Below, piece by piece: positions 12,001 to 27,131 of a stretch of DNA of 38,645 nt. The position numbers were made by a program, and so were the translations under genes. Numbering within the stretch: the first letter of the stretch is position 1; each line of letters begins with the position of its first letter. The stretch comes from Sedimentisphaerales bacterium (GTDB taxonomy: Bacteria > Planctomycetota > Phycisphaerae > Sedimentisphaerales > UBA12454), in contig JAFGGI010000053.1 in assembly GCA_016930635.1 (NCBI GenBank), forward strand, positions 1 to 38,645, read 5' to 3'. The notes beneath the pieces were generated by a model, which saw only the letters and a program-made list of their open reading frames with translations, was not told where the DNA came from and made no database searches.

Positions 12001-15000
12001 TACTCGAACCATAGGTTATATTAGCTGTCGCACCAATAACCGCAATTGCATCATTTTCATTCATACCTGTTACATACGGCACGTCAGTTGCCTGGCTGCT
12101 GCCAACTACAAGGTCAACTACAGTGCCGCAAGGGACTATATCAGCAGGTAACACATCTATTACCTTTCCATAATCGGCCGCATCGCTGCAGACATAAATA
12201 CTTTCACCATAACTTACATCTGCAAATTGTGAACCAGGGAAATTATTATTTAGCGAATTCCTCGCGTTATGTTCAGTTACTCCTGCTCCTGCCAGTACTA
12301 CTACATTAGTACCTTTGCTGATTACCAGGTTAACATTGCCTTGCCAAATAACTGTCCCTGGAGCCGGGTCAGAACTTATCACACAGCCAATCGCTACAGT
12401 ATTATCGCACTGTTCAGTTACTGTACCTTTATTCAGCAATGAAGAATTAAGTATAGTTTCAGCTTCAGCTTCAGTCTTATTTCTAAGGTAAGGTACGACT
12501 GGCAAATCAGGGTTGTAAAGTTTCCTGACTTCGCCTTCTGTCAAGGCCTCTTTATAGATTCTAACATCATCGATAAGACCATTAAAGGGGTAGTTCGTTG
12601 AAGCTAAATTTGAATTGCAACCTCCAGTCCAATAATCTTTACCGATAAGAAGGGACAAATCACCTTGACCTATAGGTCCTGAATAGGCTGGACTGCTGTT
12701 AGGTTCTCCATCAACATATAATTGTACTTTCGTACCATCATAGACCGCTGCAACATGATACCATTCATCATGATCAAGTTCTTTGTCGCCGGCATATTCA
12801 ATTGGAGTGCCATTTATAACAGCCTGGAATTGTAATTTGTTATTCCCATCGTGCCATAAAGCATATGCACAATCTCTACCCTTTGAAATAATTGTCATAG
12901 TGGTATTGAATGCGTTCGGTTTTATCCAGGCACATAAAGTCAATTTTTCAGAAATGTCAAGCTCAGAATGGTCTTGTACTTCTATATAACTGTTAGAGAA
13001 ATTATATGCCCCGCCTATTTTGCCCTGCGGTTCCCAATCTGGGGCACTACTATGCAATGTACCATCAAGCTCATTATCTGTGCTATCTTCGGCTGTACCA
13101 TCAAGTTCCCAGTGAGCAACTAATAAATGCTTCAAAATATCATCTGTTTTTACAACCAGATCAACTACAGTTCCATAGGGGACGATACCTTTTTCAGATT
13201 GATCTATTACCGTACCCGGCTCTGCGTCGCTGTAATAATAAACACTTAAGCCGTAGGTTATACCATCAATTTCACCAATTAAGGCTATCGCCTCAGACTC
13301 GGTCATACCAGTCAAGTCAGGTATTTCAGGTAAGGAGCTGTATTCATCTGCTCCTATGTCAGCAATGAACTGTTCACGTACCTCGAAATCAATGTCTTTT
13401 TGGCCCGAATAATCTCCGTTTGAATCTCCGGCATTTAAACAGGATGTTGATGTGGAGCCCAGACAATATTTATAATTGCTGGTTCGATAAAGCTGCCTGA
13501 CTTCATTGCCAGTCAAGGCCCTGTTGTAAATACGGGCATCATCAATAGTTCCGGCAAAGTCTTTGCCCATAACATAATCAACGCCGATAAACACATCACC
13601 GCTTGAATCGACAGCGCCGGATATGTTATTGATTTCCGTCTGAAGAGCCCCGTTAACGTAAAGTTTCAAATCGCCGTTATCTTCCCGGACACCGACAACA
13701 TGTGCCCATTGGCCGGCAACAGAATGGGTTTCCTCACTTTCTGCATGAACCCCGTTACCGTTTACAATCGCTACAACCCCATAGCAGCCGCCATATGTCT
13801 GGCTCTGACTTATAAAATAACCACTTTTTGAAAATGGGTCATACCGGTAAATAATCCTTCCATCTAAACAATCAAGATCAGGTTTTACCCATGCACACAG
13901 GGTAAAGCCTGCTGGAAAATCAAAGTCGCTATGATTCGATATCTGTATATAATCATTGTCTCCATCAAAGACGAATCCGTTATCAAGTTTGCCTGATGCC
14001 GTTAATGTTGCATTGTAAATCGTGCCGTAATGGTTATTTGCAGTAGAATCCCCGGCGATGCCGCCTGTGTCATCATCAAGTTCCCAGTGAGCAACCAAAT
14101 TCCCATGTGCAGAATCCTGTGCTATCACAAAGTTCGGATCATCTTCTGTATTGCCGCCGTCATTTATACCTAAGCTGGAAACCCAACTGCCACCGGCAAA
14201 ACAATCTCGTATACAGCAATAACCGAAACGTGGAAATGATGAGTTTTCATTGAATATCTCAGAGGACGCGGAACTATTCCAGAAAATAGTATTAGTTATA
14301 ATCGGATGACATGAAGCACCGTCATTATACACACCTCCGCCATTTGTAGCGGTATTGTCAGTAATTGTACAGTTAGTGATAGCCGGTGAGCAAAGGTAAT
14401 TATATATACCCCCGCCCTTGTCAGAAGATGCTTCATTTTTGCTTATTATACAATTACGAATAACAGCACTTGCCTCAAAAATATAGATACCTCCACCAGA
14501 GCCAACAGTTGTATTACCTACAATGAAACAATTTTCTATCGTCAGATTTTCAGTATAATTGCAAAAAACACCGCCGCCATTGTCTGTATTATAATTATCT
14601 GTGATAATACAATTTCGGATTTGGGTGTTTACAGTAGAAATATTATTCGCATCGCCTGTATCATAGTTGATCCCACAAGAGCCACCAGTAATCTTAAGGC
14701 CCTCAATAGAATAACTTACCGTGTCATAATCAAGAGTAGCAAGTCTTATAACAGGAGCGGCAGGATCACTTGCGGCAATTATCGTTGAACTAACAATATC
14801 CCAGTTATCGGGATCGGTGCTTCTCAACGTAACAACTTTTCCATTTACACCAGCTGCGGTAAAATCCAGATTTTCTTTATAAATATCCTTGCCGAGCTCT
14901 ATCGTATCGCCGTTATAAGTATCCCAGTCATTTATAGCTTCTGTTATCGTTGTATATAGTTTTTCCGAACGTGTATTGAAAATTCTGACTACTTTAATTG

Positions 15001-15397
15001 TACAGGTCGCCATTGATGTCTTGCCGCCATTATCTGTAACCCGCAGTGCTGCCACATATGTCCCGGCTTCAGAATAGGGATTATCTGTTATCTGCTTAGT
15101 TGTGGGCGGATCTTGTTCTGCATCCATAGTAAATGTGGTACCATCATAATCAAAATCCCATTCCATTTTGACAAGAGTTCCGCCAATATCTCCTGAAAGA
15201 AAACCGTCAAATAATATCTCCTCATCCTCATCCACAGTCTCATCCTCATTCACTATTGCAAGGTTGGGGCTAACAGTAAAAACAGCAACAGGTGGATAAT
15301 TATAAGGCGGGCCTCCACATGCAAATAATTTCGCCGGCATACATATAAAAACAAATAAGATTAATACGAAAGTCAGGATTGCTCTATAACCGTTCAT
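1..15397 (-). CDS. Giant secreted multidomain surface protein (3' end beyond the left edge)
   Basis: The frame is open from ATG 15397 to base 2, so at least 5,132 codons; the C-terminus is outside the window. An AGAGGA ribosome site lies 8 bases before the ATG. A signal peptide (about residues 1-27, ending in KLFAC) leads the protein. In order I read: a PKD-like domain (40-130), beta-helix (133-425), LamG (430-640), PASTA (687-754), LamG (760-958), eleven tandem PASTA repeats (965-1702), a second beta-helix opening with VYVDAS (1703-2030), a fibro-slime domain (2120-2312), a third beta-helix (2320-2795), PKD/cadherin-like repeats (2800-3270), a beta-propeller (3276-3593), a DUF11-like segment (3593-3713), a fourth beta-helix (3713-4030), and many PKD/Ig-like repeats to the edge. 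Boundaries are by eye. Repeated VEAG and VDAG openings mark the PKD-like units. The role is probably adhesion or a cell-surface layer; no catalytic motif was seen. It follows the TPR gene by 21 bases. Confidence 0.9.
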   Translation of the reverse strand, partial: MNGYRAILTFVLILFVFICMPAKLFACGGPPYNYPPVAVFTVSPNLAIVNEDETVDEDEEILFDGFLSGDIGGTLVKMEWDFDYDGTTFTMDAEQDPPTTKQITDNPYSEAGTYVAALRVTDNGGKTSMATCTIKVVRIFNTRSEKLYTTITEAINDWDTYNGDTIELGKDIYKENLDFTAAGVNGKVVTLRSTDPDNWDIVSSTIIAASDPAAPVIRLATLDYDTVSYSIEGLKITGGSCGINYDTGDANNISTVNTQIRNCIITDNYNTDNGGGVFCNYTENLTIENCFIVGNTTVGSGGGIYIFEASAVIRNCIISKNEASSDKGGGIYNYLCSPAITNCTITDNTATNGGGVYNDGASCHPIITNTIFWNSSASSEIFNENSSFPRFGYCCIRDCFAGGSWVSSLGINDGGNTEDDPNFVIAQDSAHGNLVAHWELDDDTGGIAGDSTANNHYGTIYNATLTASGKLDNGFVFDGDNDYIQISNHSDFDFPAGFTLCAWVKPDLDCLDGRIIYRYDPFSKSGYFISQSQTYGGCYGVVAIVNGNGVHAESEETHSVAGQWAHVVGVREDNGDLKLYVNGALQTEINNISGAVDSSGDVFIGVDYVMGKDFAGTIDDARIYNRALTGNEVRQLYRTSNYKYCLGSTSTSCLNAGDSNGDYSGQKDIDFEVREQFIADIGADEYSSLPEIPDLTGMTESEAIALIGEIDGITYGLSVYYYSDAEPGTVIDQSEKGIVPYGTVVDLVVKTDDILKHLLVAHWELDGTAEDSTDNELDGTLHSSAPDWEPQGKIGGAYNFSNSYIEVQDHSELDISEKLTLCAWIKPNAFNTTMTIISKGRDCAYALWHDGNNKLQFQAVINGTPIEYAGDKELDHDEWYHVAAVYDGTKVQLYVDGEPNSSPAYSGPIGQGDLSLLIGKDYWTGGCNSNLASTNYPFNGLIDDVRIYKEALTEGEVRKLYNPDLPVVPYLRNKTEAEAETILNSSLLNKGTVTEQCDNTVAIGCVISSDPAPGTVIWQGNVNLVISKGTNVVVLAGAGVTEHNARNSLNNNFPGSQFADVSYGESIYVCSDAADYGKVIDVLPADIVPCGTVVDLVVGSSQATDVPYVTGMNENDAIAVIGATANITYGSSTTACSDTVPAGYVISHPSTVSCNGIVDLVVSNGEANEVPDLKGMTKADAGAILWDLNGVKPGDTSGCSCSDDMAVGLVVWQSAIGDVPCDTYIDFKCSSGPAVVPNVSNCGMTEADAITVLNEVNDVSYGSSTTACHDTIPAGEVISQNPPAGFVPCGTVVDLVVSSGQPSVPGVTGMTEADAIAAINAVADISYGSSTYKCDNSVSSGDVISQSATGTVSCGTVVDLVVSSGQADLPDVTGMDETSACNIINAIDGLSCGTITGECSDSVSSGNVISQYPAAGSVDCDTAVDLVISTGQPDVPDFSGGIGLPEALAITALNEMDDVRYGSSTTACSDTVPAGRVISQSYTGTVPCGTVVDLVVSTGQPDVPDFSGGGTSEAAAITALNEMEDVSYGSSTTACSDTIPAGEVISQNPPAGFVPCGTVVDLVVSTGQPDVPGVGGIAEADAIAVIDAVENISYGSTTYVCSTLVAKGTVISQSNIGVSPCGTVVDLTVSRPEIFMPDVTGMTETDAKNTISAVDGITVTFGPITYQCHGTIAANLVISQSVIGLVECGADIEVDLILSKGPPVYVDASRDIGGDGLTWGTAYKYLQDAIAAVSSGDEIWVANGTYYPDVSNNNAPDGNDNPIHTFTLPGGVILYGGFSGSSDTIDPGRDEVSIAERHISTYQSVLSGDIDQDDKGLPASGNSYHVVTGTDDAVINGFVIRGGYADGTGNDSKGGGMYNAGTSPMVVNCHFFANYAQSSGGGMYNVNGSSPTLINCLFSGNAVDSTTAAGDHRGGSIYNNASAPVLINCTISNNIAYDTGGIYNDGSSSSSLTNCILWDNRDGYNATPSQNQQITDAPGAASAASYSCIQDDTQNDDNIPYGGTNKDLYPEFVNPGHWEDWGDIPENSLVVEATIRDFKGYYLQDYSTTNPDGHPDFQNMPDDDFGREVGIVGPLGSPLGSDGKPIYSALIAADGNNPVSDCNHINCKQKCSDCDCDCDSTHGVDWFYWWFNDDPEGQINKSLKTSLILRPTGVDNEYKFEDITFYPIDGQLFNVVGDEEVEPSYHDEGKPTQGESGYPYTYHNYHFTTELKTDFYYDDSIEQNLKIQKADDDLFIYINNILVVDLGGVHEPKAKYIKINENGDAEVYADPCFSNYEDTVPLGLVGNVKYSFHIFFAERHTTWSHFEFTTTLKLIPKLTAGDYHLGVGSPYIDAGNNAVFGTYEPYDFVPYEDPDGKYDFDIRSAIDGSPRKMDDPDTDDTGSGGAPIIDLGAYEYPRIWYVNRSVTGGNGRTWATAFNDLQDALAAALPSDQIWVAVGTYTPDSGTNDPVRTFTLREDVTVYGGFAGNEIDRDRRNWRLNETILSGDIGAPGNYSDNSYHVVTGVDNAILDGFTITDGFAGGSGAYANGAGMYNTDCSLTIRNCTFSGNRAVNDGGGMYNYAGGSTITNCIFNGNYALGGEGAGMYNYVFDGSLKLTITKCIFNENNAGGNGGGMCTNNTADSAGSPTITNCVFSNNYASGLGAGMRNLLDGGITGPTITNCTFVGNTTDSPGGGIHNTGGYVIVANCILYGNLPDQISDSAASSLVTYSNIQGGWPAGDGNIDSPPLFLSLDKPAGPDEIFMTADDGLNINKYSPCVDTGVDPAVNPLVPEKDITGFTRVDIADIGNTNAATDMGAYEYRPDTYFDPIYVDAGADKKIVLPVVTVLLDDAVAGGGNPELTTKKWIPVSVPPGCDISFNPSFVFDGNDPTTAELTVNEELFQTHEFLCFVLMLEINDGYRILSDKVVIRVYPGIDTNLKPEVEAGGPYTVEVGEWLTLDPTVTDDGKPHGGYLGFEWTLVGFPMDPVGGVIFDSELNQTTKNAKVKFTVPDPNGSDGPAYALKLTVKDSPDSEQTSSDIALINVISTNVAPEVEAGDDCTATLGLTFPLTIDLAADAVFGVSGRTTPSVIDSDGGPETLQIRWRVASGDMTAVEFQHPAPETMPPASGEVKVTFARPGVYTLELSAYDGRDRVTDTVVITLQPVPFVQAGENKMVQLYATGASPAYSATVDLIDAEVIDRFMPDNISSTDWTVITEESHSDEWDNIDSPFYCPDCEIFFSDSNQVNPSVTVRGDDPNAIVGVYKLKLTATDPNVSDPGEDEVYVSVYRNSENPVTYKKNLYISDIDLAQVATYEIDGNNLDFETSTSVAPHLYPTSLAIDRDSKTIFVSFDEIGKLFLIDASTVSDMGTIDVPGAGSLGGLVYDHSRHNLYVVDRDGDFYSYSWYPAGGRLVLDTGASISLEGIDNVAYGLALDESRGRLYVCGGYTSSTAAHPRPEDKIIRYYNSNPKINPNYALWEKMGQIPKTGTLPHAPVGMCVDTKLGEDGRIYTGTLDDNTPDLLCSFDIETGTINSCDISDANVFQGFANDKAMGLTVDEDTHYVYFTVGHPDNSVPFQQRVVVVDKDLDYLSQASPIGDPPDANIGAPADIIYSKTAYKPSAGVLTKTKVSSEDIVPGIEIKFMIFYEIITGGELLQETYLTDELSLPFTFVSASGNGIYDSDTHTVEWYLGDLANGNTGSFEVVVKLNDWAVPYTTITNKCVIDGYDKREEAECEITTHTWTPDIDRIYVNEYAAGGSGSTWETALRSLQDALALAGQIVCYLHPEGPEMTEERIEIWVAGDCQIPGFDSNDTFNLRSYVNVYGGFGGTETSMDQRNPENETILFGAGNDYVVTANCQDPILDGFTISYGGIAGILCSTASPTISKCKIVNNLGIAGISCINSSAPRILNSMICNNNGDGIKNESDAAISITNCTIASNTGYGYNCDDCAGSAAISNTIFWGHYGEYTGSPDLRNCYIEGHSETYPDKDPQGNFGGTDPFKDIAMGDYHLASDSVCRDEGENTFVEGERDVDGELRIVNTLVDIGADEIQSIQVYAGEDKEAALPTGSGTVDVHFTDTSITIVDTSLTIADLSVEWTVLTGSNPVNFEEMKRVLNPIFTFDTPGWRVFEVVVYNDNVEMSRDTVWVWIGMDFDVVYDPIVITDSGDHKTTVRVINFNSNLDIPSPDQVAWGEVPGVIECVPDRLSALTERPFEFETEVTFKRGPALWYELITIAWDQVGNRLGRKSTKIPVNYEGVGVEVSAEPEDVYWPARTVSLSGSVNGIVPASVRWEVPEAAEHLVSFSNSSSYETQMQFLEEPTGNKFGTDVVFLAMDDYGYQIGAAIVHVELYSSLHEQSQMVEAGKNQEITLPINIAYLVGEVTGDYGSVEWELIEAPDGATVTFTDDNPANGTDNDHKKLAVKAVFSVSHPGPYKFKFSAWDEYLEEIGSDSLWVTVLPADGGNITVDAGADSEVFMPTGGAPCSYTLIGTVEGLYNTVLWSEDSGSGPVTFDPPAANSLDDQDVIFSNPGIYEFSLMAMDAASDVLGADTVTVKVYSAVDSVTISAEPESLNLTEGHVKLTGTVELPCCDEIEWSVGEEVADAVHFSIDPEDPYNKLNKLVTFSRYGTFTIRLYARCNGVVVGWATKQITVTEPDAVVDGLVEGRDEYVKLLGSIGDNPSLDLSGTIIPSLSGLTYLWEIIPDKTTAAGATLANPADRDGAELVLTPGTTGCGVVQLSLTASYGDTQIGFDGSVKVIILDGEPIVSAGQGYPLVIAGKPFNLNKTTAWHMYGATNKTYTWECYPPLGYTIDSVLHPEVTFSDEGSYILTVTADDNYGVQSEASCVTITVVDTAEVYAGGFKRTAPYTPVKLDDAFVSVIMDDMTYKWTVTGGTGSGDVVFTTIHPTLPGDEVLNPTVTFFTSATEEETYELTLTVNDGEDPYPNSDTVEIAVQPVYAADTTPPEIISFTAKQGEAWIPEPVNGDILITVIATDDNVDRIELNVTGPGHIAHSGNYEVVGGTAEHPKGLKLTHILDTYIDGPGVIQATAYDIAGNPSATAEISFNGSYKVQSFSVSPEEVNNFDAEIIFSGLLSDYSNYDIKIYGTGDSTPIYTSPTLSGPDVSLSGAAGNDFNISSDGTYTAKLTAAGVDTAS
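4260..5570 (-). other. Beta-propeller followed by a DUF11-like segment in the giant protein
   Basis: Blade-like repeats of the type LYVVDRDGDFYSYSW, LYVCGG and VYFTVG run over about 4620-5570. They are followed at about 4260-4620 by a segment with YLTDELSLPFTFVSASG and GSFEVVVKL, which resembles DUF11 surface domains. The same propeller style recurs as a separate gene at 33049-34392, where GIIYDRGRKELYLLG corresponds to GLVYDHSRHNLYVVD here. Confidence 0.6.
8462..9035 (-). other. Fibro-slime-like domain in the giant protein
   Basis: The segment contains YHFTTELKTDFYYD, DDDLFIYINN, VVDLGGVH and IFFAERHTTWSHFEFTTTL. These match what I know of the fibro-slime/PA14-like family (TIGR02148), where a DDD.W.FI.. 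strand, a DLGGVH motif and an H.AER motif are typical. It directly follows a cysteine- and aspartate-rich linker encoded by a short hexanucleotide repeat near 9043-9064. The family is linked to bacterial surface fibres and to sugar binding in PA14 relatives; the ligand here is unknown. Confidence 0.75.
10293..12504 (-). repeat. Eleven tandem PASTA repeats inside the giant protein
   Basis: Eleven consecutive units of about 64-72 residues follow the pattern VPDVTGMTEADAIA, then YGSST, then a VISQ strand, then GTVVDLVVS. This is the PASTA pattern known from the outer parts of Ser/Thr kinases and PBPs, where some copies bind peptidoglycan fragments. Ten of the eleven carry two cysteines about 20 residues apart, one before SDTVPAG and one in VPCGT, which would suit one disulfide per domain. 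The first tandem unit (about 12315-12504) lacks the second cysteine. Unit sequences vary, but some pairs are close at DNA level. The family call is by motif, not by profile search. Confidence 0.85.
13136..13338 (-). repeat. Isolated PASTA unit between the two LamG domains
   Basis: This single unit begins IPDLTGMTESEAIAL and ends GTVVDLVVK. It lies between the LamG domains at about 13475-14110 and 12525-13115. Both positions that hold cysteine in the tandem units are tyrosine here (YYYSD and VPYGT). Confidence 0.8.
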
Positions 15398-18060: not shown

Positions 18061-18219
18061 TACGCCAAACAGGATTCCGGCCTTCGGCCTAGAACCTAAA
18101 TTTGCTTTGCAAATTTCCATAGGGGCTCTGCCCCTCTGGCGTTCGCTTCGCTCACTGTCACCCCTAAAGCGTGGGGAAATACTTTCCCCACACCTCTTGA
18201 GGTTCAAATCCTGTCGCAA
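18061..18219. repeat. Stacked-hairpin element bounded by copies of the tRNA-Arg 3' end
   Basis: Short perfect hairpins follow one another: GGCC-TTC-GGCC (18079-18089), AAATTTGC-TTT-GCAAATTT (18098-18116), AGGGGC-TCT-GCCCCT (18121-18135) and GTGGGGAAA-TAC-TTTCCCCAC (18171-18191). The left end, TACGCCAAACAGGATTC (18061-18077), repeats the 3' end of the tRNA gene, TACGCCCGACAGGATTC (18220-18236), with 15 of 17 bases equal. An inverted copy of the T-arm lies at 18201-18216. The layout resembles a small non-coding repeat inserted at a tRNA 3' end. Confidence 0.65.
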
Positions 18220-18241
18220 TACGCCCGACAGGATTCGAACC
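18201..18241. repeat. Inverted repeat formed by the tRNA T-arm and its trailer
   Basis: GGTTCAAATCCTGTCG (18201-18216) is the reverse complement, with one mismatch, of CGACAGGATTCGAACC (18226-18241), which is the T-arm of the tRNA gene. The 9-base loop contains the mature 3' end of the tRNA. In the precursor RNA this could compete with normal T-arm folding. Confidence 0.7.
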
Positions 18242-18293
18242 TGTGACCTTCGGTTTAGGAAACCGACGCTCTATCCTACTGAGCTACGAGCGC
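18220..18293 (-). tRNA. tRNA-Arg (anticodon CCT)
   Basis: The 74-base minus-strand sequence folds as a full cloverleaf: acceptor GCGCTCG with CGGGCGT (one G-U at the end and one inside), D-stem GCTC/GAGC, anticodon stem TCGGT/ACCGA around the loop TTCCTAA, T-stem ACAGG/CCTGT around TTCGAAT, and discriminator A. The anticodon CCT reads Arg AGG. CCA is not encoded. Confidence 0.95.
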
Positions 18294-18339
18294 AAAAACA
18301 CATATGAATAAGCATACTTTACCGCCAAAAAAGCAAGAC

Positions 18340-18367: not shown

Positions 18368-18478
18368 CCAGTCATTTAAAACTCAAAACCAGCCGGCCGA
18401 ATACACCCTGCAACGAAAATTGTCCAAAAATTCCCTGTTACCTTCCATTTTCAGCCTCCACTAACCTATTGAAGACGC

Positions 18479-19090
18479 ATGGCAGGGTCAGTTTACAAAT
18501 ACAGGACGGCAACTTATAATAGCTCTGTGGAAAATACAGATCGGGACGATATTCAGGCCGTGTTAAACGGTGATACAGCAGCTTTTGAAAGGCTGGTTCT
18601 CCGGTATCAGCGGCAGATAACCAGACTGATGTGGCGGTTCAGCCGGGACAGTTTCGTCTGCCAAAGACTTGTACAGGACACCTTCGTCGAGGCCTTTATC
18701 AGTTTAAAAACTTACAAGGCCAAGGCACCTTTTCTTCACTGGCTTAAAAAAATCGGCACGCGGACCGGATATCGATACTGGAAGGAGCGGGACAAGCAAA
18801 AACAGTTCCTGTCTTTAGAGGATTTCGACTTTGCTCAAAAAGATAAGGACCGGGACATCGCACCAGAGAAAGCCGCTAATATCTTACACACCCTGCTGGA
18901 CAGGTTGCCTATCACAGACAAGCTTGTATTGACTTTGATGTACTTTGAAGATTGTTCCGTTAAAGAAATAGCACAAAGAATGGGCTGGACAGCCGCTGCT
19001 GTAAAAATGAGAGCCTTGAGAGCCCGAAAAAAGATAAAAAAAATAGCGGAAAAGGAAAACCTTTTGGAGAAATTGGAATGGATACGCTAA
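18479..19090 (+). CDS. ECF-type RNA polymerase sigma factor
   Basis: This 203-residue protein has sigma region 2 at about residues 24-95 (DDIQAVLNGDTAAFERLV, then QDTFVEAFISL, then FLHWLKKIGTRTGYRYW) and region 4 at about 130-185 (LLDRLPITDKLVLTLMYFE, then a helix-turn-helix VKEIAQRMGWTAAAVKMRAL). Length and order are those of ECF sigma factors. The start has no strong ribosome site; the ATG at 18479 leaves a 20-residue tail before region 2. The next gene overlaps its end by 13 bases. Context suggests that it controls itself and the efflux genes downstream, and is held inactive by one of the two membrane proteins that follow. That link is inference. Confidence 0.9.
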   Translation: MAGSVYKYRTATYNSSVENTDRDDIQAVLNGDTAAFERLVLRYQRQITRLMWRFSRDSFVCQRLVQDTFVEAFISLKTYKAKAPFLHWLKKIGTRTGYRYWKERDKQKQFLSLEDFDFAQKDKDRDIAPEKAANILHTLLDRLPITDKLVLTLMYFEDCSVKEIAQRMGWTAAAVKMRALRARKKIKKIAEKENLLEKLEWIR

Positions 19091-19341
19091 AGATTATAGA
19101 AAAACTCGCTAAAACGGCCCAAAAAGAGGAAATACCGCAAATGGACGTTTCCCGGGCTGTAATGGCTCGAATAGACACTGCGCAGCAGGATTCGGCAGTT
19201 ATTCTGTCGTTTGAATGGTTTGCAGGTATATCCGCTGCCGCCGCCTCGATCGTAATACTCATTTCGATACCGGCCTGGCGATATCTGTTCGACCCATTAG
19301 CCCAAATACTCGCACCTTTACAGGAGGTGATGTTATGGTAA
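19078..19341 (+). CDS. Small single-TM protein, candidate anti-sigma factor
   Basis: This is an 87-residue protein with an acidic/basic N-terminal part of about 48 residues, one membrane segment (about 49-66, ISAAAASIVILISI) and a short C-terminal tail. It overlaps the sigma gene by 13 bases and the next gene by 7, so translation is probably coupled. No zinc-binding HxxxCxxC anti-sigma motif is present. In size and topology it matches CnrY-like anti-sigma factors, which also have a short cytoplasmic sigma-binding part and one TM. I see no sequence match strong enough to prove this; position and topology are the evidence. Confidence 0.7.
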   Translation: MDTLKIIEKLAKTAQKEEIPQMDVSRAVMARIDTAQQDSAVILSFEWFAGISAAAASIVILISIPAWRYLFDPLAQILAPLQEVMLW

Positions 19342-19763
19342 CCGAAGAAACTCCTGCAAAAAGCTATCGTGATAAAAAAACTGCCGTCTGGATCATCTGT
19401 GCAGCGGTAATCCTGTTCTCAGGTATGGCTATCGGCGCAGGTGCAACTGTTTTAATGGTCAAACACAGGATAATACATATAAGCCGGCACAAACACACAG
19501 ATGCCGCTATGATAGCAGAAAAAATAAGCGTAAAATACGGCCTGAACCAGCAGCAAAAAACTGCTGTAGAAGGTATCTTTGAAGCAGCTCTCGAAAGAAA
19601 AGAACGAAGACGCGAATTAAGACGCATACAACGCGACCAGGAAGCTCAAATAATAAATAATGCAATGAAAGATGTTCTCACTGAACAGCAATTTGCACAA
19701 TGGGATAAAGATTTTCAGGAAAAAAGGAACAAATATAAGGACGGCTCCAAAGACCAAAAATAA
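19335..19763 (+). CDS. Membrane-anchored CnrX/Spy-like envelope sensor
   Basis: The 142-residue product starts at ATG 19335, with AGGAGG 7 bases upstream inside the previous gene; a GTG-type start at 19215 in the same frame is possible but lacks this site. A TM helix (about 18-41) is followed by a histidine cluster (H44, H48, H52, H54) and then charged helices with two LTxxQ-like motifs (LNQQQK 70-75, LTEQQF 115-120). This is the layout of the CnrX/ZraP/Spy/CpxP group of periplasmic helical sensors and chaperones. H44 and H48 form an HxxxH just after the TM, the spacing of two metal ligands in CnrX as I recall; the other CnrX ligands (His and Met near the C-terminus) are not evident. It may sense metal or misfolded protein and control the sigma factor through the one-TM protein. 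Confidence 0.7.
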   Translation: MVTEETPAKSYRDKKTAVWIICAAVILFSGMAIGAGATVLMVKHRIIHISRHKHTDAAMIAEKISVKYGLNQQQKTAVEGIFEAALERKERRRELRRIQRDQEAQIINNAMKDVLTEQQFAQWDKDFQEKRNKYKDGSKDQK

Positions 19764-19876
19764 TACCGCTAAAAAGGCAAAATAAACACATTTTTTGCGT
19801 TACTTTACCTATCTTGCCCACACTAACAAAGCAGTATTAAATAGCCGATATCAGTACGTCCAGACTCTATAGAAAA

Positions 19877-21769
19877 ATGAAAAAAAGATTGTATAACTCG
19901 TTTGAGAGCAAGAAGTTAAAGCGAATACAGGCGGTTTTAATCACTATTTTATCGTCCGTTTTTGTTTTACTGGCTGGGTGCAACGAAGCCAAATATCGCA
20001 GGGATACTGATAAAATCGCTGATAATATCATCCGCCAAAAGCAGCTCCAGACCCTCGGAAAAAAGACCCCTTTCGGCATTGAAAGGCCCAGCGATATCCT
20101 GCGAAGAAGACTGCTTATAGGCCAGAACCTGCCGATTTACAGCCATGCTTCGTTAGGCACCGATAAACTCGATCCGATAGAACACTGGCCTGAGGAAAAC
20201 TATCCGGCAGCAGTTTCAGGTGAAAAAGTCATCGAAACGACAGATGCAAATAAGCCGATAGTCATTTCGCTTGTCCAGGCATTACAGATCGGAGCTTATA
20301 ACAGCTTCGCATATCAGGAAAAAAAAGAAGCAATATTCCAAAAAGCACTCGATCTTGAACTGGAGCGTGATGCATTTAGAGGAACATTTACCGGGCAGGT
20401 TGAAAACCTCATCAGCACCGATACAACAAGTGAAGACACCGAAACAGGAGTAAGAAACAGCGGTGATTTCGGCGTCAGTCAAAAACTCAAATCAGGTGCA
20501 GAACTCGGTGCCAGCTTTGCCATCGATTTGGTAAATCTCCTTACTTTAGGTCACGCCTCATCTATGGGCCTGTTCAGCGATGCAACCGTGTCCATTCCGT
20601 TAATGAGAGGCTCGGGAAAACATATTGTTACAGAAGACTTAACACAGGCAGACAGAGATGTTATTTATGCACTGTGGGAGTTCGAACAATACAAAAAAGA
20701 ATTTGCTGTGGAAGTTGCAAACAAATATCTGTCCGTTCTCCAGCAGTTAGACACCATAAAAAACAGGGAAGCCGATTATCGCAGCAGAACAGCCTCGGCT
20801 AAAAGAAGCAGAAGACTGGCCGATGCAGGCAGAATACAGGAAATCGAAGTTGACCAGGCAGTCCAAAATGAGCTGCGTTCCCGTCAGGGGTGGATTACCG
20901 CAACACAATCATATAAAAGACAGCTCGATTCTTTTAAGATTTTCCTCGGCCTGCCTCCCGATGCCAATATCGAGCTGGACCCGAAAGAGCTTGAACTATT
21001 GGCGGCACCAACAAAAAAACTTATCAGCCAGGTAGAAGAAGAAACAGAGACTAATGTTGAAATTACTTCTAATGACCAACTCGTAGAACTTCTTGAGCCG
21101 GATTATACAAATGCTGGTCCTTATGAGCTGGAAGAATCACTGGCAATAAAACTTGCATTCGACAACCGTCTCGACCTGAAAGCTACAGCCGAAAAAGTCT
21201 ATGATGCCCAACGGGCCGTGGTAGTTGCGGCAGATGATTTAAGGGCAGAAGTTACCCTGTTCGGCTCAGTTGAGTCAGGAGCACGCAGAACTATCAGTTC
21301 TGCCGGCAGTGACGATTCACATATAAGAAAGGACAAGGGTGTTTCTTCCGCTCTATTAACAATCGATTTGCCTTTCCACAGAACTCAAGAGGCTATCAAT
21401 TACCGAAACAGCTACATCGATCTCGAACAAAGTGTTCGAGATGTCCAGGAACTCGAAGATAATATAAAATCAGAGATACGAAACAGATTGAGAGACCTGC
21501 TTGAGGCCAGAGAAAAAATGCACATACAGGCAAAATCGGTATATGTAGCTCAAAAGCGTGTCACAAGTGTTAATATGTTCCTCGACGCGGGAAGAGCACA
21601 GACACGTGACCTGCTCGAGGCACAGGATGACCTTCTGGATGCACAAAATTCACTGACAGCTTCAGTAATCGATTATCGCATAGCAGAATTGAACGTCCAG
21701 CGGGATATGGGCGTCTTACAGGTTGACGAAAAAGGCTTATGGAAAGAATATTCGCCGGGAGATATATAA
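19877..21769 (+). CDS. TolC-like outer membrane efflux lipoprotein
   Basis: The 630-residue protein has a long N-terminus, a hydrophobic stretch and lipobox LAGC with Cys35, so it is probably a lipoprotein anchored in the outer membrane. Two coiled outer-membrane-factor repeats are visible: the first around residues 130-360 (with VANKYLSVLQQLDTIKN and a glycine-rich strand GASFAIDLV), the second around 390-620 (LAIKLAFDNRLDLKA, then SEIRNRLRDLLEAREKM and LLEAQDDLLDAQNSLTAS). At 630 residues it is longer than E. coli TolC, mainly from the N-terminal 120 residues and the acidic linker near 365-400. It would form the exit duct of the pump encoded by the next three genes, which follow with gaps of one or two bases. 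Confidence 0.9.
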   Translation: MKKRLYNSFESKKLKRIQAVLITILSSVFVLLAGCNEAKYRRDTDKIADNIIRQKQLQTLGKKTPFGIERPSDILRRRLLIGQNLPIYSHASLGTDKLDPIEHWPEENYPAAVSGEKVIETTDANKPIVISLVQALQIGAYNSFAYQEKKEAIFQKALDLELERDAFRGTFTGQVENLISTDTTSEDTETGVRNSGDFGVSQKLKSGAELGASFAIDLVNLLTLGHASSMGLFSDATVSIPLMRGSGKHIVTEDLTQADRDVIYALWEFEQYKKEFAVEVANKYLSVLQQLDTIKNREADYRSRTASAKRSRRLADAGRIQEIEVDQAVQNELRSRQGWITATQSYKRQLDSFKIFLGLPPDANIELDPKELELLAAPTKKLISQVEEETETNVEITSNDQLVELLEPDYTNAGPYELEESLAIKLAFDNRLDLKATAEKVYDAQRAVVVAADDLRAEVTLFGSVESGARRTISSAGSDDSHIRKDKGVSSALLTIDLPFHRTQEAINYRNSYIDLEQSVRDVQELEDNIKSEIRNRLRDLLEAREKMHIQAKSVYVAQKRVTSVNMFLDAGRAQTRDLLEAQDDLLDAQNSLTASVIDYRIAELNVQRDMGVLQVDEKGLWKEYSPGDI

Positions 21770-21770
21770 A

Positions 21771-23534
21771 ATGGCAAAGAATAAATTATACACAATAATC
21801 GCAATTGTTGTTGCCGTGGCAATAGTTATTATCATTTCCACTGGTATGCTCAAAAGCAAAGACAGCTCAAAAACCGATGGCCCAACATACAAGGTCAAAC
21901 GCGGGCCGTTAACTATCAGCTTTGTCGAGTCGGGAACCATAAAGGCAAGAGAGCAGATCGTCATAAAAAACGAGGTAGAAGGCAGAACCTCGATTATATC
22001 TATCATCCCCGAAGGAACACGCGTCAAGAAAGGCGATTTACTTATCGAACTCGACGCCAGCTCGCTGGAAGACGACAAGATCGACCAGGAGATACGGGTC
22101 CAAAACGCCGAGGCTTCATACATCGGAGCTAACGAAGATTTGGCAGTAACCAAAAACCAGGCGGAAAGTGACATTGCCCTGGCAAAGCTTACTCTCGAAT
22201 TTGCCAAACAGGACCTCGAAAAATATATCAAGGGTGAATATCCATACGAACTCGACAAGTCGGATGCCGAAATCGGTCTTGCTGAAGAAGAGCTGACCCG
22301 CGCACAGGAAACCTTAAAGTGGTCAAAACAACTTTACGAGGAAAAATATATTTCTCAAACCGAGCTGCAGGCAGATGAACTGTCAAAAAAGAAAAAGACT
22401 CTGGACCTCGAACTGGCAAAAAAAAGCAAGGATCTCCTTGAGGACTATACTTATCAGCGCAAACTGGCTCAGCTAAAAAGCGATGTCTCACAGGCCGAGA
22501 TGGCAATGGAGCGAATCGAACGTAAGGCCAAGGCAAATATCATACAATCTGAAGCCAGTTTGAAGGCAAAAGAGGCTGAGTTTAAACGTCAAAAGGACAA
22601 ACTGGAAAAAAACAAACGTCAGATTGAAAAAACCAAAATTTACGCCCCTGCTGATGGTTTGGCTATTTATGCAACAAGTGCTAAGTCCCGCGGCTGGAGA
22701 GGTGTCGAGCCTTTGGAGGAAGGAAAGGAAGTCAGAGAAAGGGAAGAACTGATACATCTTCCCACAAGCAACGCGGCAAAGGCGGAAATTTCGGTCCACG
22801 AATCAAATCTGAAAAAAACACGATTAGGTATGCCCGCTGTTATCACAGTAGATGCCCTGGCCGGCAAAACCTTCTACGGAACGGTAAAAAAAATCGCTCC
22901 TTTGCCGGACGCCCAGAGCATGTGGATGAATCCCGATCTGAAACTTTATGATTCAGAAATATACATTGACGCAAATGATCCGACACTGAGAACCGGTATG
23001 AGCTGCCAGGCCGAGGTGATAGTCCAGAAATACAAAGATGTTCTTTACATTCCTCTACAGGCTGTTCTTCGCATCGGCTCAGAACCGACTGTTTATATCA
23101 AAAAAGGAAATGACTTCGAACCAAGGCAGGTAACACTTGGTCTCGATAACAATAAAATGATTCATATCCTTGAAGGCCTTGAGGAAGGTGATGTTGTTCT
23201 GCTCAGCCCGCCTTTGAAATCCGCTGCAGTAGATACAGAAAGTAAAGGTCTGCGTTCGTCAATTCCGGACAACCTCGGAGAGAAAGTCTCCCAAACCCTT
23301 GAAAAAGTAAATACCGAATCCACCGATACGCAAAAACCAGACCAGCAGAATGAAACCGAAGACCAGCAAAAACAGGAAGACGGGCGAAAACGCTTCGACG
23401 AAATGTCTCCCGAAGAAAAAGAGCAGATGAGAAAACGTTTCGAGCAAATGTCTCCTGAAGAAAAAGAGCAGATACGCCAAAGACGAGGCAGCGACGGTTC
23501 AAGAAGACACAAAAGAAACGAAGAGAGCCAATAA
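21771..23534 (+). CDS. MacA/HlyD-type periplasmic adaptor of the efflux pump
   Basis: I place the start at ATG 21771 (MAKNKLYTII), one base after the TolC stop and 9 bases after GGGAG; an earlier in-frame start at 21723 would lie inside the TolC gene. The 587-residue product has an N-terminal TM (about 6-25), a lipoyl/barrel half (IVIKNEVEGRTSIISII, then VKKGDLLIELD), a long coiled-coil hairpin (about 100-280), the second lipoyl half (KIYAPADGLAIY), a beta-barrel and a membrane-proximal domain. The last 75 residues are a Gln/Glu/Arg-rich tail in which KRFEQMSPEEKEQ occurs twice with small changes. Adaptors of this family join the ABC transporter to TolC. Confidence 0.9.
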   Translation: MAKNKLYTIIAIVVAVAIVIIISTGMLKSKDSSKTDGPTYKVKRGPLTISFVESGTIKAREQIVIKNEVEGRTSIISIIPEGTRVKKGDLLIELDASSLEDDKIDQEIRVQNAEASYIGANEDLAVTKNQAESDIALAKLTLEFAKQDLEKYIKGEYPYELDKSDAEIGLAEEELTRAQETLKWSKQLYEEKYISQTELQADELSKKKKTLDLELAKKSKDLLEDYTYQRKLAQLKSDVSQAEMAMERIERKAKANIIQSEASLKAKEAEFKRQKDKLEKNKRQIEKTKIYAPADGLAIYATSAKSRGWRGVEPLEEGKEVREREELIHLPTSNAAKAEISVHESNLKKTRLGMPAVITVDALAGKTFYGTVKKIAPLPDAQSMWMNPDLKLYDSEIYIDANDPTLRTGMSCQAEVIVQKYKDVLYIPLQAVLRIGSEPTVYIKKGNDFEPRQVTLGLDNNKMIHILEGLEEGDVVLLSPPLKSAAVDTESKGLRSSIPDNLGEKVSQTLEKVNTESTDTQKPDQQNETEDQQKQEDGRKRFDEMSPEEKEQMRKRFEQMSPEEKEQIRQRRGSDGSRRHKRNEESQ

Positions 23535-23536
23535 AA

Positions 23537-24217
23537 ATGAGCATCGTAAGGTTTGAAGATATTTACAAAATCTATGAGATGGGCGCCGAACACGTAAAAG
23601 CCCTCAACGGTGTAAGCCTGTCTATTAAAAAAGGAAGCTTCTGGGCAATTATGGGGCCAAGCGGCTCAGGCAAAAGCACTATGATGAATATCCTCGGCTG
23701 TCTCGACCGCCCGACCGCAGGCCAATATTACCTCGAAGATAAAGATGTAAGCAAACTGGATGACGATGCCCTTAGTGATATTCGATTAAGATACATTGGA
23801 TTTATCTTTCAAAGCTTCAACCTGATCCCGCAATTAACCGTTCAGAAAAATATCGAGCTGCCTCTCTATTATCTCGGCTGGGAATCACACAAAAGCATTG
23901 AACAAGCTAAGGAACTGGCAGCAAAGGTCGGACTTGAAGAAAGACTGAACCATAAACCTTCGGAGCTTTCAGGCGGACAAATGCAAAGGGTTGCTGTTGC
24001 CCGCTCTTTAGCTGCAAATCCCCATATAATCCTTGCAGATGAACCGACAGGAAACCTGGACAGCACCACCGGCAATCAAATTATGGAGCTTTTAGCTGAG
24101 CTTAATAATGAAGGCACAACAATTATTATGGTAACACATGAACCCTATATCGCCTCTTTCGCACGAAACAGACTTCATATGAAAGACGGAAAAATCGAAA
24201 GCATTGAGGAAAGCTGA
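23537..24217 (+). CDS. MacB/LolD-type ABC transporter ATPase
   Basis: The 226-residue ATPase has Walker [10 protein letters not shown] (40-48), Q-loop FQSFNLIP (91-98), signature [15 protein letters not shown] (144-158), Walker B IILADEP (164-170), D-loop and H-loop (VTHEP, about 198-202). All catalytic residues are present. It is the stand-alone ATPase type that pairs with a separate FtsX-like permease, unlike E. coli MacB, which is fused. Gaps to both neighbours are two bases. Confidence 0.95.
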
Positions 24218-24219
24218 TT

Positions 24220-25488
24220 ATGCACAGGTCAAGATTTGTAAGAAATATATGGCTCGGCATTGAAAATCTTCTGATGCACAAGCTCCGTTCTTTCCTTACA
24301 ATGCTTGGAGTAGTTTTCGGTGTAGGCAGTGTTGTCGCGATGCTCGCAGTCGGCGAAGGCGCCAGCCAGGACGCTCTAAAACAGATCGAAAAGCTCGGCA
24401 GCAATAACATTATTATCAATTCAATGAAATCTGTCGAAGAAGAAACTGCCAGTGCACAGAGAACCCGTATGAGCATCTACGGCCTGACTTATCTTGACTA
24501 CGAGCGAATGGGTGAAAGTTTCCCGAATATCAAAAAGGTGGCACCTGCCAAACTGATACGTAAAGAATCGCGCATCGGTTCCAATATGCTCGAACTTAGA
24601 ATAGTCGGCACCACAGACGAGTGGTTCGAGCTTGTACCCAGAGAGATTATTGCCGGCAGGGTTTTTAATAAAGAACAGCTCCGCCAATGCTCCGCAGTAG
24701 CAGTACTGACAGAATTCGGAGCAAGAAAACTGCTTGCAACAAAAAATACTATCGGCCAGACTGTGCGTATAGGCGGCAATGCTTTCGAGGTTATCGGGAT
24801 TATAAAAAGTGAAAAAAGCCAGGCTGGAAATATCCAGATACCTGACCAGCAAATTGACGCGTATATACCGCTCAGCACAGTCCGCCAGTATTTCGGAGAT
24901 ATATTTATGAAAATAAGCTCCGGCAACTTTATGCGGGAGATGGTCGAACTGCATCAGATTATCGCGCAAATCGACAGCATAGATAAAGTCGAAGCAACCG
25001 CTGCAGGAATCGAACGGATGCTGCAGGACTTTCACAAGAAAAAAGACTATAACGTCAGCGTACCTTTGGCCTTGCTCAAACAGGCAGAAGCTACAAAGCG
25101 AAGGTTTAATATCGTGCTCGGCTCTATCGCAAGTATCAGTCTTTTAGTCGGCGGCATCGGCATTATGAACATTATGCTTGCCTCGGTTACCGAAAGAACC
25201 CGTGAAATCGGTATCCGCCGGGCCATAGGTGCAAAACGCAGCCAGATAATACTCCAGTTCCTTATAGAAACAGTTGTGTTGTCAACTATTGGCGGAATCG
25301 TAGGCCTTGTTATGGGAATCGTAATACCTGTAATCATCACTTTCTTTGCAAAAATGCCGACCGTAATAACGTTAGGCAGCATACTCCTGCCATTATTCAT
25401 CAGTGTCGGAATCGGCATAATCTTCGGCATTTACCCCGCCGCAAGTGCTGCCAAAGTAGACCCCATAATTGCGTTAAGACACGAATAG
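24220..25488 (+). CDS. MacB/FtsX-family ABC transporter permease
   Basis: The 422-residue permease has a first TM (about 20-45, FLTMLGVVFGVGSVVAMLAV), a periplasmic MacB-type domain (about 50-280) and a C-terminal FtsX domain with three TMs (about 290-415). The conserved GIMNIMLASVTERTREIGIR stretch and AIGAKR are typical of the MacB/LolC group. It completes the ATPase, adaptor and outer membrane factor set. Substrates of such pumps include macrolides, lipopeptides, siderophores and haem; none can be chosen here. Confidence 0.95.
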   Translation: MHRSRFVRNIWLGIENLLMHKLRSFLTMLGVVFGVGSVVAMLAVGEGASQDALKQIEKLGSNNIIINSMKSVEEETASAQRTRMSIYGLTYLDYERMGESFPNIKKVAPAKLIRKESRIGSNMLELRIVGTTDEWFELVPREIIAGRVFNKEQLRQCSAVAVLTEFGARKLLATKNTIGQTVRIGGNAFEVIGIIKSEKSQAGNIQIPDQQIDAYIPLSTVRQYFGDIFMKISSGNFMREMVELHQIIAQIDSIDKVEATAAGIERMLQDFHKKKDYNVSVPLALLKQAEATKRRFNIVLGSIASISLLVGGIGIMNIMLASVTERTREIGIRRAIGAKRSQIILQFLIETVVLSTIGGIVGLVMGIVIPVIITFFAKMPTVITLGSILLPLFISVGIGIIFGIYPAASAAKVDPIIALRHE

Positions 25489-25538: not shown

Positions 25539-27131
25539 ATGACTGAAAAAATCAAAAATCCTATTTTGCCGGGCTTCAATCCGGACCCATCTATCGTCAG
25601 AGTAAAAGACGACTACTACATCGCAACTTCGACCTTTGAATGGTTCCCGGGCGTAGCTATCCATCACTCAAAAGACCTTATAAACTGGGAACTTATCGGT
25701 TACGCACTTACATCAAAAAAACACATCAATATGACAGGAAATCCCAACTCAGGCGGAGTATGGGCTCCATGCCTTACCTACTGTGACGAGCTTTTCTATC
25801 TTATTTTCTCCGATGCTAAAACCATCAAGGGCCCTTATAAAGATGTCCATAATTACCTGACAACAGCAACCAATATCAAAGGCCCCTGGTCTGAACCAAT
25901 CTATCTTAACAGCTCCGGCTTCGACCCATCGTTGTTCCACGATGATGACGGCAGAAAATGGCTGCTGAATATGAGATGGAACCATCGATTCGGCGACGCC
26001 CGGCGTTTCGGCGGGATTATAATTCAGGAATATGACCCCAAGGCAAAAAAACTCATCGGGCCCATCGAGACTATCTTTACAGGCTCAAAAGAAATAGGCA
26101 AAACCGAAGGGGCGCACATATATAAACACAATGGCTATTATTATCTTATGACCGCAGAAGGCGGAACAGGCTACAGCCACGCTGTAACACTTGCCAGGTC
26201 GAAAAACCTCAAAGGCCCTTATGAAATCCATCCTGATAATCCGATTCTGACATCCAAAGATAAACCCAATCTTGAATTACAAAGGGCCGGCCATGCCAGC
26301 TTGGTCGAGACACAAAACGGTCAATGGTATATCGTACATTTGTGCTCCAGACCCGTTATGCCGCAAAAAAGATGTGTGCTCGGCAGAGAAACCGCTATCC
26401 AGAAGGCCAAATGGAACTCGGACGGCTGGCTGAGATTAGAAACAGGCGGCAACGACCCGCTAATTTCTGTCCCATCGCCTGGATTGCCTTCCTGCCCATT
26501 TAAACCTGAACCTGCCAGAGATGATTTCGACAGCACCAAGCTAAGCCTGCACTTTAATACTTTAAGAATCCCGGCAGATGAAAGCTGGCTATCGCTGAAA
26601 GAAAGACCGGGCTGGCTTCGACTGTACGGTAGAGAATCGCTCGGCTCAAAACACGCCCAAAGCCTTATCGCAAGGAAATTAACCTCGCTCAATTGCACCG
26701 CCCAGACCTGTGTGGAATTCGAGCCTGAAATTTTCCAGCAGGCCGCAGGACTGGTTCTTTTATATGACACACAAAATTACTACTATCTCAAAATCACTCA
26801 CGACGAAAACATCGGCCGATGTATTAATGTATGCTTTAGCCAGAATGACAATTATGCTGAACTTGAGCCTATACCGTTCGGCCTTGAACATAAACTCTGT
26901 CATCTAAAAGCAGAAGTTGATTATGATAAGTTGTATTTCTCATATTCACTTGATGAAACCCAGTGGCACAAATTCGACAAAACCTTTGACATTACAACGC
27001 TTAGTGATGAATTTTGTAATGAAGGCTCTTTTACCGGTGCTTTTGCCGGCTTGTGCGTCCAGGACCTCACCGGCCAGAAAACAAAAGCAGATTTCGACTA
27101 TTTCGAATACAAAGAAAAATCCCGCACCTAA
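25539..27131 (+). CDS. GH43 beta-xylosidase
   Basis: The 530-residue enzyme without signal peptide is a glycoside hydrolase family 43 xylosidase of the type with a five-bladed propeller plus C-terminal beta-sandwich. Residues expected for catalysis are visible: Asp16 (NPDPSIV, base), Asp129 (GFDPSLF, pKa modulator) and Glu190 (KTEGAHIYK, acid); their spacing is close to that of the Selenomonas xylosidase (14, 127, 186 as I recall). The sandwich domain spans about 325-525 (RDDFDSTKLSLHFNTLRIP onwards). It would release xylose or arabinose from imported oligosaccharides in the cytoplasm. It lies 50 bases after the permease; TATAAA at 25522-25527 is only 11 bases before the ATG and no ribosome site is evident, so the mRNA may be leaderless. 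Confidence 0.95.
   Translation: MTEKIKNPILPGFNPDPSIVRVKDDYYIATSTFEWFPGVAIHHSKDLINWELIGYALTSKKHINMTGNPNSGGVWAPCLTYCDELFYLIFSDAKTIKGPYKDVHNYLTTATNIKGPWSEPIYLNSSGFDPSLFHDDDGRKWLLNMRWNHRFGDARRFGGIIIQEYDPKAKKLIGPIETIFTGSKEIGKTEGAHIYKHNGYYYLMTAEGGTGYSHAVTLARSKNLKGPYEIHPDNPILTSKDKPNLELQRAGHASLVETQNGQWYIVHLCSRPVMPQKRCVLGRETAIQKAKWNSDGWLRLETGGNDPLISVPSPGLPSCPFKPEPARDDFDSTKLSLHFNTLRIPADESWLSLKERPGWLRLYGRESLGSKHAQSLIARKLTSLNCTAQTCVEFEPEIFQQAAGLVLLYDTQNYYYLKITHDENIGRCINVCFSQNDNYAELEPIPFGLEHKLCHLKAEVDYDKLYFSYSLDETQWHKFDKTFDITTLSDEFCNEGSFTGAFAGLCVQDLTGQKTKADFDYFEYKEKSRT

Follow-up and report, generated by a model that had tools for sequence, protein, structure and literature searches.

The CnrYXH system of Cupriavidus metallidurans confers cobalt and nickel resistance (PMC7689651). 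In Acinetobacter baumannii, SigAb-AabA-AabB is made up of overlapping genes for a sigma factor, a small transmembrane anti-sigma factor (107 aa) and a periplasmic helical partner; it is autoregulated, a CnrY-like embrace of the sigma factor is predicted, and it directly controls very few targets, namely itself, relA and a small RNA, but no pump (PMC12153292). The window studied here, the whole stretch of 38,645 nucleotides that was analysed from a Sedimentisphaerales bacterium (contig JAFGGI010000053.1), carries an overlapping triad of genes for an ECF sigma factor, a one-TM protein and an LTxxQ-type sensor, followed by a complete tripartite pump. Planctomycetota have numerous ECF sigma factors, for which, to our knowledge, hardly any targets have been identified.

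The triad resembles CnrYXH in combining an ECF sigma factor, a small TM protein of the class II anti-sigma type (putative here) and a TM-anchored periplasmic sensor, and in the control of an export pump, which is judged here by promoter sequence only. It differs from CnrYXH in the gene order (sigma factor, anti-sigma factor, sensor), in having no conserved metal ligands and in the predicted target, a MacB-type ABC exporter. Moreover, the profile of the sensor reaches Spy and not CnrX, and the sigma factor is closer to other ECF sigma factors (E = 7e-18 for the best solved match) than to CnrH (E = 2e-7), which is also among its solved relatives. When set beside SigAb-AabA-AabB by description, the triad has the same gene order and likewise overlapping genes, whereas AabB is secreted and the sensor of the window is TM-anchored, and the phylum is a different one. 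With Spy, CpxP and ZraP the sensor shares a short helical periplasmic domain with two LTxxQ motifs in order, but it is membrane anchored, its motifs are closer together and it is part of a sigma switch. The exporter is like MacAB-TolC in having a permease with MacB_PCD and FtsX domains, a MacA-like adaptor and a TolC-like channel in one operon; in contrast to MacAB-TolC, its ATPase and permease are split, all components score below the MacA/MacB equivalog cutoffs, the adaptor has an LTxxQ-like tail and the operon has a predicted ECF-type promoter. We read the locus, with a probability of roughly three in four, as a CnrYXH-like autoregulated envelope-stress switch that would be dedicated to this MacAB-TolC-type exporter.

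The triad and its conservation

The features of the locus, all on the forward strand, are as follows.

18436..18464, forward: predicted ECF-type autoregulatory promoter (-35 TGTTACC, 15-nt spacer, -10 CCACTAA)
18492..18520, forward: predicted housekeeping-type promoter (TTTACA-N17-TATAAT, 11/12 consensus match)
18527..19090, forward: ECF sigma factor, 187 aa, GTG start; sigma-70 by Pfam and NCBIfam
19078..19341, forward: putative class-II-like anti-sigma factor, 87 aa, conserved family; 13-nt overlap with the sigma gene
19323..19327, forward: GGAGG ribosome-binding site of the sensor, inside the anti-sigma gene, read from the sequence
19335..19763, forward: TM-anchored LTxxQ/Spy-type sensor, 142 aa; its start codon and the anti-sigma stop codon overlap in ATGGTAA
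19798..19826, forward: predicted pump promoter (CGTTACT-N15-ACACTAA), with the same spacer as the sigma promoter
19877..21769, forward: TolC-like outer membrane factor, 630 aa; PF02321 (OEP), 1.3e-20
21771..23534, forward: periplasmic adaptor (MacA/HlyD-like), 587 aa; TIGR01730, 2.9e-35, above cutoff
23537..24217, forward: MacB-type ABC ATPase, 226 aa; PF00005, 3.8e-32
24220..25488, forward: MacB-type permease, 422 aa; PF12704 (MacB_PCD), 8.5e-35, and PF02687 (FtsX), 1.2e-18

All parts of the overlapping set and the following pump that the initial annotation had described are thus present, and the overlaps are conserved. In the sigma factor, Sigma70_r2 and Sigma70_r4_2 were both above cutoff in the profile search, and its named relatives at 52–70% identity come from metagenome assemblies of Phycisphaerae and other Planctomycetota. 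Comparison with the relatives placed the best start at the GTG at 18527 and not at the ATG at 18479 given in the list of open reading frames, since many relatives begin at the GTG and a TANAAT box lies 6 nt upstream of it (22 loci). An extended isoform beginning at the ATG at 18479, comparable to that of SigR, was also considered and was rejected, as it is not conserved, the frame being closed in many relatives. The 87-aa protein is laid out as two short cytoplasmic helices, one TM segment and a periplasmic tail of about 20 aa; the two cytoplasmic helical stretches are conserved in its family, and the size and the single TM segment fit a class II anti-sigma factor. The family gave a weak match to CnrY by hhalign (probability 3.7, E 0.012) and is present in 24 of 294 Planctomycetota genomes. 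A tRNA-Arg (CCT) gene on the minus strand (18219–18294) immediately precedes the triad. Farther to the left, an open reading frame (2–15397, minus strand) runs off the left edge of the window and encodes at least 5,132 aa of a giant surface-type protein with matches to six PASTA, laminin-G, PKD and beta-helix domains.

At a threshold of E ≤ 1e-12, 99 of the 148 genomes of the window's order that were searched have sigma relatives, of which the weaker are general ECF sigma factors; sensor relatives were found in 39, nearly all of them adjoining a sigma relative. The triad is kept in about 40 loci sampled within the order, so that its gene order is far beyond chance. In the roughly 40 loci read in detail, the sigma and anti-sigma genes mostly overlap by 13 nt, the anti-sigma and sensor genes mostly overlap as ATGGTAA or ATGGTAG, and a G-rich ribosome-binding stretch for the sensor occurs at the same place inside the anti-sigma gene of relatives. 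In addition, the pairwise distances of the three triad proteins correlate with r = 0.80–0.85 (r = 0.85 for sigma versus anti-sigma), in part because of shared ancestry. Four loci (L086, L088, L096 and L098) have sigma factors with N-terminal extensions that form a group at 40–50% identity, possibly a separate subgroup, and an ECF-type site directly 5' of their sigma genes was not found.

The sensor and the question of metal binding

The profile of the sensor family reaches Spy of E. coli (E = 3.8e-4), and the match covers the two LTxxQ motifs in their order; these motifs in a helical periplasmic domain place the predicted sensor with the Spy/LTxxQ superfamily. In the family, 18 of 36 members weakly match PF13801 (Metal_resist, heavy-metal resistance) and 14 of 36 likewise weakly match PF07813 (LTXXQ); the sensor of the window taken alone had no family match above cutoff in the profile search and no match in a direct search against the PDB. 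Residues G30, G34, L70, Q74 and Q119 are invariant and W123 is nearly so. In the AlphaFold model the periplasmic domain forms three helices (pLDDT > 90), and Foldseek and VIA-align searches with the full-length and soluble models returned nothing significant and listed neither CnrX nor Spy. The likeness to CnrYXH that had been proposed at first is supported in the architecture; for the CnrX fold these searches gave no significant match. The sensors of L081, L087 and L075 have additional LTxxQ repeats and long Gly/Pro/Arg-rich tails.

The same three parts as in CnrYXH, together with the weak PF13801 matches in half of the sensor members, would be expected of a true CnrYXH-type metal sensor, in which an HxxxH motif just after the sensor TM segment binds a divalent metal and the pump exports metals or metal complexes. 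The sensor of the window does contain H44, H48, H52 and H54, one or two His are common in this region among close relatives, and M111 is kept in 13/13 of these. However, H44 occurs in 7/36 sensors and H48 in 1/36, so the HxxxH motif exists in the window but is private to its sequence, and a conserved His or Cys is lacking among the 36 sensors; metal sensing by HxxxH as a conserved feature was therefore rejected. CnrX requires Met123 (PMC7689651); in the window's sensor the last helix offers no obvious equivalent and contains neither Met nor His, and M111 lies outside it. The pump speaks in the same direction, being of the ABC MacB type and not RND, as had been recognised from the beginning, and in other families the promoter type found at this locus faces genes for type II secretion. 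We therefore consider a metal sensor unlikely and do not retain the metal variant suggested for this locus.

Promoter sites of the triad and of the exporter

What this analysis adds to the initial annotation is a conserved ECF-type promoter before the sigma gene and a second copy before the pump operon. Boxes like TGT(T/C)AC(C/T)-N15(16)-CCACTAA stand 5' of the sigma gene in 21 loci, while the sequence around them has diverged. Between this site and the sigma gene, TTTACA-N17-TATAAT would act as a basal housekeeping promoter and give a near-leaderless sigma transcript. The pattern TANAAT-N6-RTG recurs in 22 loci, with the box ending exactly 6 nt before the sigma start; within this set, positions -12, -11, -9, -8 and -7 do not vary (T, A, A, A, T), which comes partly from selection, as the loci were chosen for a good box and a 6-nt gap.

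The second ECF-type site falls within the 113-nt gap 5' of the TolC gene. The pattern GTTACYN{14,16}CACTWA has exactly two matches in the 2.45-Mb genome, one before the sigma gene and one before the pump, and its reversed control has none; by itself this count is not above chance, and its weight lies in the placement and the conservation of the sites. A relaxed motif search for further regulon members in the same genome gave noise (11 matches versus 46 in the control). For the comparison among relatives, a position weight matrix (PWM) was trained on the sigma-gene promoters only, and the best scores of random 270-bp stretches served as background (99th percentile 10.9, 99.9th percentile 20.2). 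In 11 genomes the matrix finds a site 61–81 nt 5' of the TolC start, with scores of 11.2–22.2; the window's own pump site is a weaker match (13.3 of 25.1). The boxes are far more conserved than their flanks. One genome (G032) looked at first like an exception; there the sigma promoter lies 205 bp from the end of the contig, where the sigma gene would follow, and this short distance accounts for the missing gene.

The components of the pump operon, which encodes TolC, adaptor, MacB-ATPase and MacB-permease in this order, agree with those expected of an intact MacAB-TolC-type exporter by their predicted domains; the nearest NCBIfam model of the ATPase is MacB, with a score below the equivalog cutoff. 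The pump stands beside the triad in the same direction in the window and in five other genomes (G023, G142, G028, G115 and G018), it is beside the triad but inverted in G047, and more divergent MacAB-type genes occur near two triads (L089 and L099) in G132. Most triads have no pump nearby, and the adaptor orthologue is widespread in the order and mostly unlinked to a triad. The conservation of gene order that had been proposed as a check is thus found for the triad in about 40 loci but not for triad and pump together, and co-inheritance by adjacency was rejected, the evidence from shared promoters taking its place. At the C-terminus of the adaptor (23400–23534), LTxxQ-like repeats (MSPEEKEQMRKRFEQMSPEEKEQIRQ) are found, which occur in most orthologues, triad present or not. 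Right after the pump operon lies a gene for a probable family-43-type glycoside hydrolase (25539–27131), which was judged by eye and is outside the system.

The wide distribution of triads without an adjacent pump, and of the pump orthologue without a triad, would also fit a chance neighbourhood with separate regulation of triad and pump; the motif 5' of TolC would then be accidental or a general promoter. Against this, the two matches in the genome both lie at this locus, and the boxes stand out from their flanks. Moreover, the PWM site is kept at the unlinked pumps of G001, G039, G043 and G050, which lie about 98 kb from the triad or on a different contig, and at the inverted pump of G047, and it was not found at the same-clade pumps of G134, G089 and G035, genomes in which no triad was detected. 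The adaptor tree places G134 and G089 as sisters beside G142, and G142 carries the triad as well as the site. The site accompanies 11/11 pumps in genomes with the triad and 0/3 in those without a detected triad (Fisher p = 0.003, the lineages not being independent); the evidence for the pump promoter comes from few independent lineages, and the label requires two changes on the tree. In several distant genomes the PWM search found no site at the pump, and a TGTAACC form stands 180–264 nt before the extrapolated TolC start in G003 and five genomes of another genus or its relatives. We consider chance neighbourhood very improbable. Independent inheritance of sigma and pump genes, which had been named as a finding against the proposed system, therefore holds for the gene order and not for the regulation, where the sites are shared. 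Since the pump has its own predicted promoter copy at 19798–19826, it need not form one operon with the triad, and the comparison supports a functional linkage of the two through shared promoter sites rather than through adjacency. By their matching predicted promoters, the triad very probably turns on itself and the neighbouring pump.

Possible outputs in other families and a proposed working of the switch

Promoters of this type also occur in other families, where they are oriented away from the sigma gene and lead towards a gene for a secreted Met/Arg/Gly-rich protein, which is followed by type II secretion genes. This arrangement is found upstream of the sigma gene in L066, L214, L064, L068 and L079. 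In several loci the operon has the form c8-gspE-F-G-I, and in L066 and L214 Pfam assigned the secretion genes to E, F, G, a pseudopilin and I. In L087 and L093 the same promoter type precedes secreted LTXXQ proteins. These outputs, together with the LTxxQ-like tail of the adaptor and the placement of the sensor in a Spy-like chaperone fold family, are consistent with a sensor of secretion load, by which the triad would monitor the transit of proteins or lipids through the periplasm and tune export machines, the pump being one interchangeable output. Such a reading is weakened because the window's family lacks the secreted protein that is the output in other families, and because a Spy-like sequence tells little of the ligand; we regard it as possible and on the doubtful side. 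As a wider proposal across Planctomycetota, a module of ECF sigma factor, anti-sigma factor and Spy-like sensor, free of metal ligands and carrying basal near-leaderless and autoregulatory promoters, may have been rewired through its promoter to a MacAB-TolC-type exporter or to type II secretion, depending on the family. We put forward this output-swappable envelope switch tentatively, at somewhat less than even odds. If the link to type II secretion holds, it would mean a constant sensing module with an exchanged output machine, and a role of the Spy-like domain as a signal receptor beyond metal sensing.

For the envelope-stress switch dedicated to the exporter, the reading that we prefer, the following working can be assumed. 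At rest, the basal housekeeping promoter would supply small amounts of sigma factor, anti-sigma factor and sensor, and the 87-aa anti-sigma factor would tether the sigma factor at the membrane by its two short helices in the manner of CnrY. The LTxxQ sensor may gate the anti-sigma factor through the membrane and periplasmic parts of both proteins, as in CnrYXH and SigAb-AabA-AabB. A periplasmic signal, which is less likely to be a metal than to be damage to the envelope, secretion load, or an amphiphile or peptide, would alter the sensor and release the sigma factor. The freed sigma factor would then transcribe its own operon and the pump operon from promoters of the TGTTACC-N15-CCACTAA type, and the pump would presumably expel the offending compound. 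The architecture, its conservation, the two predicted promoters and the retention of the pump site in relatives are what can be seen in the sequence itself. Because the promoter, the probable regulon (the triad itself and one exporter), the putative inhibitor and the sensor are all readable from the sequence, the whole circuit is testable in a heterologous host.
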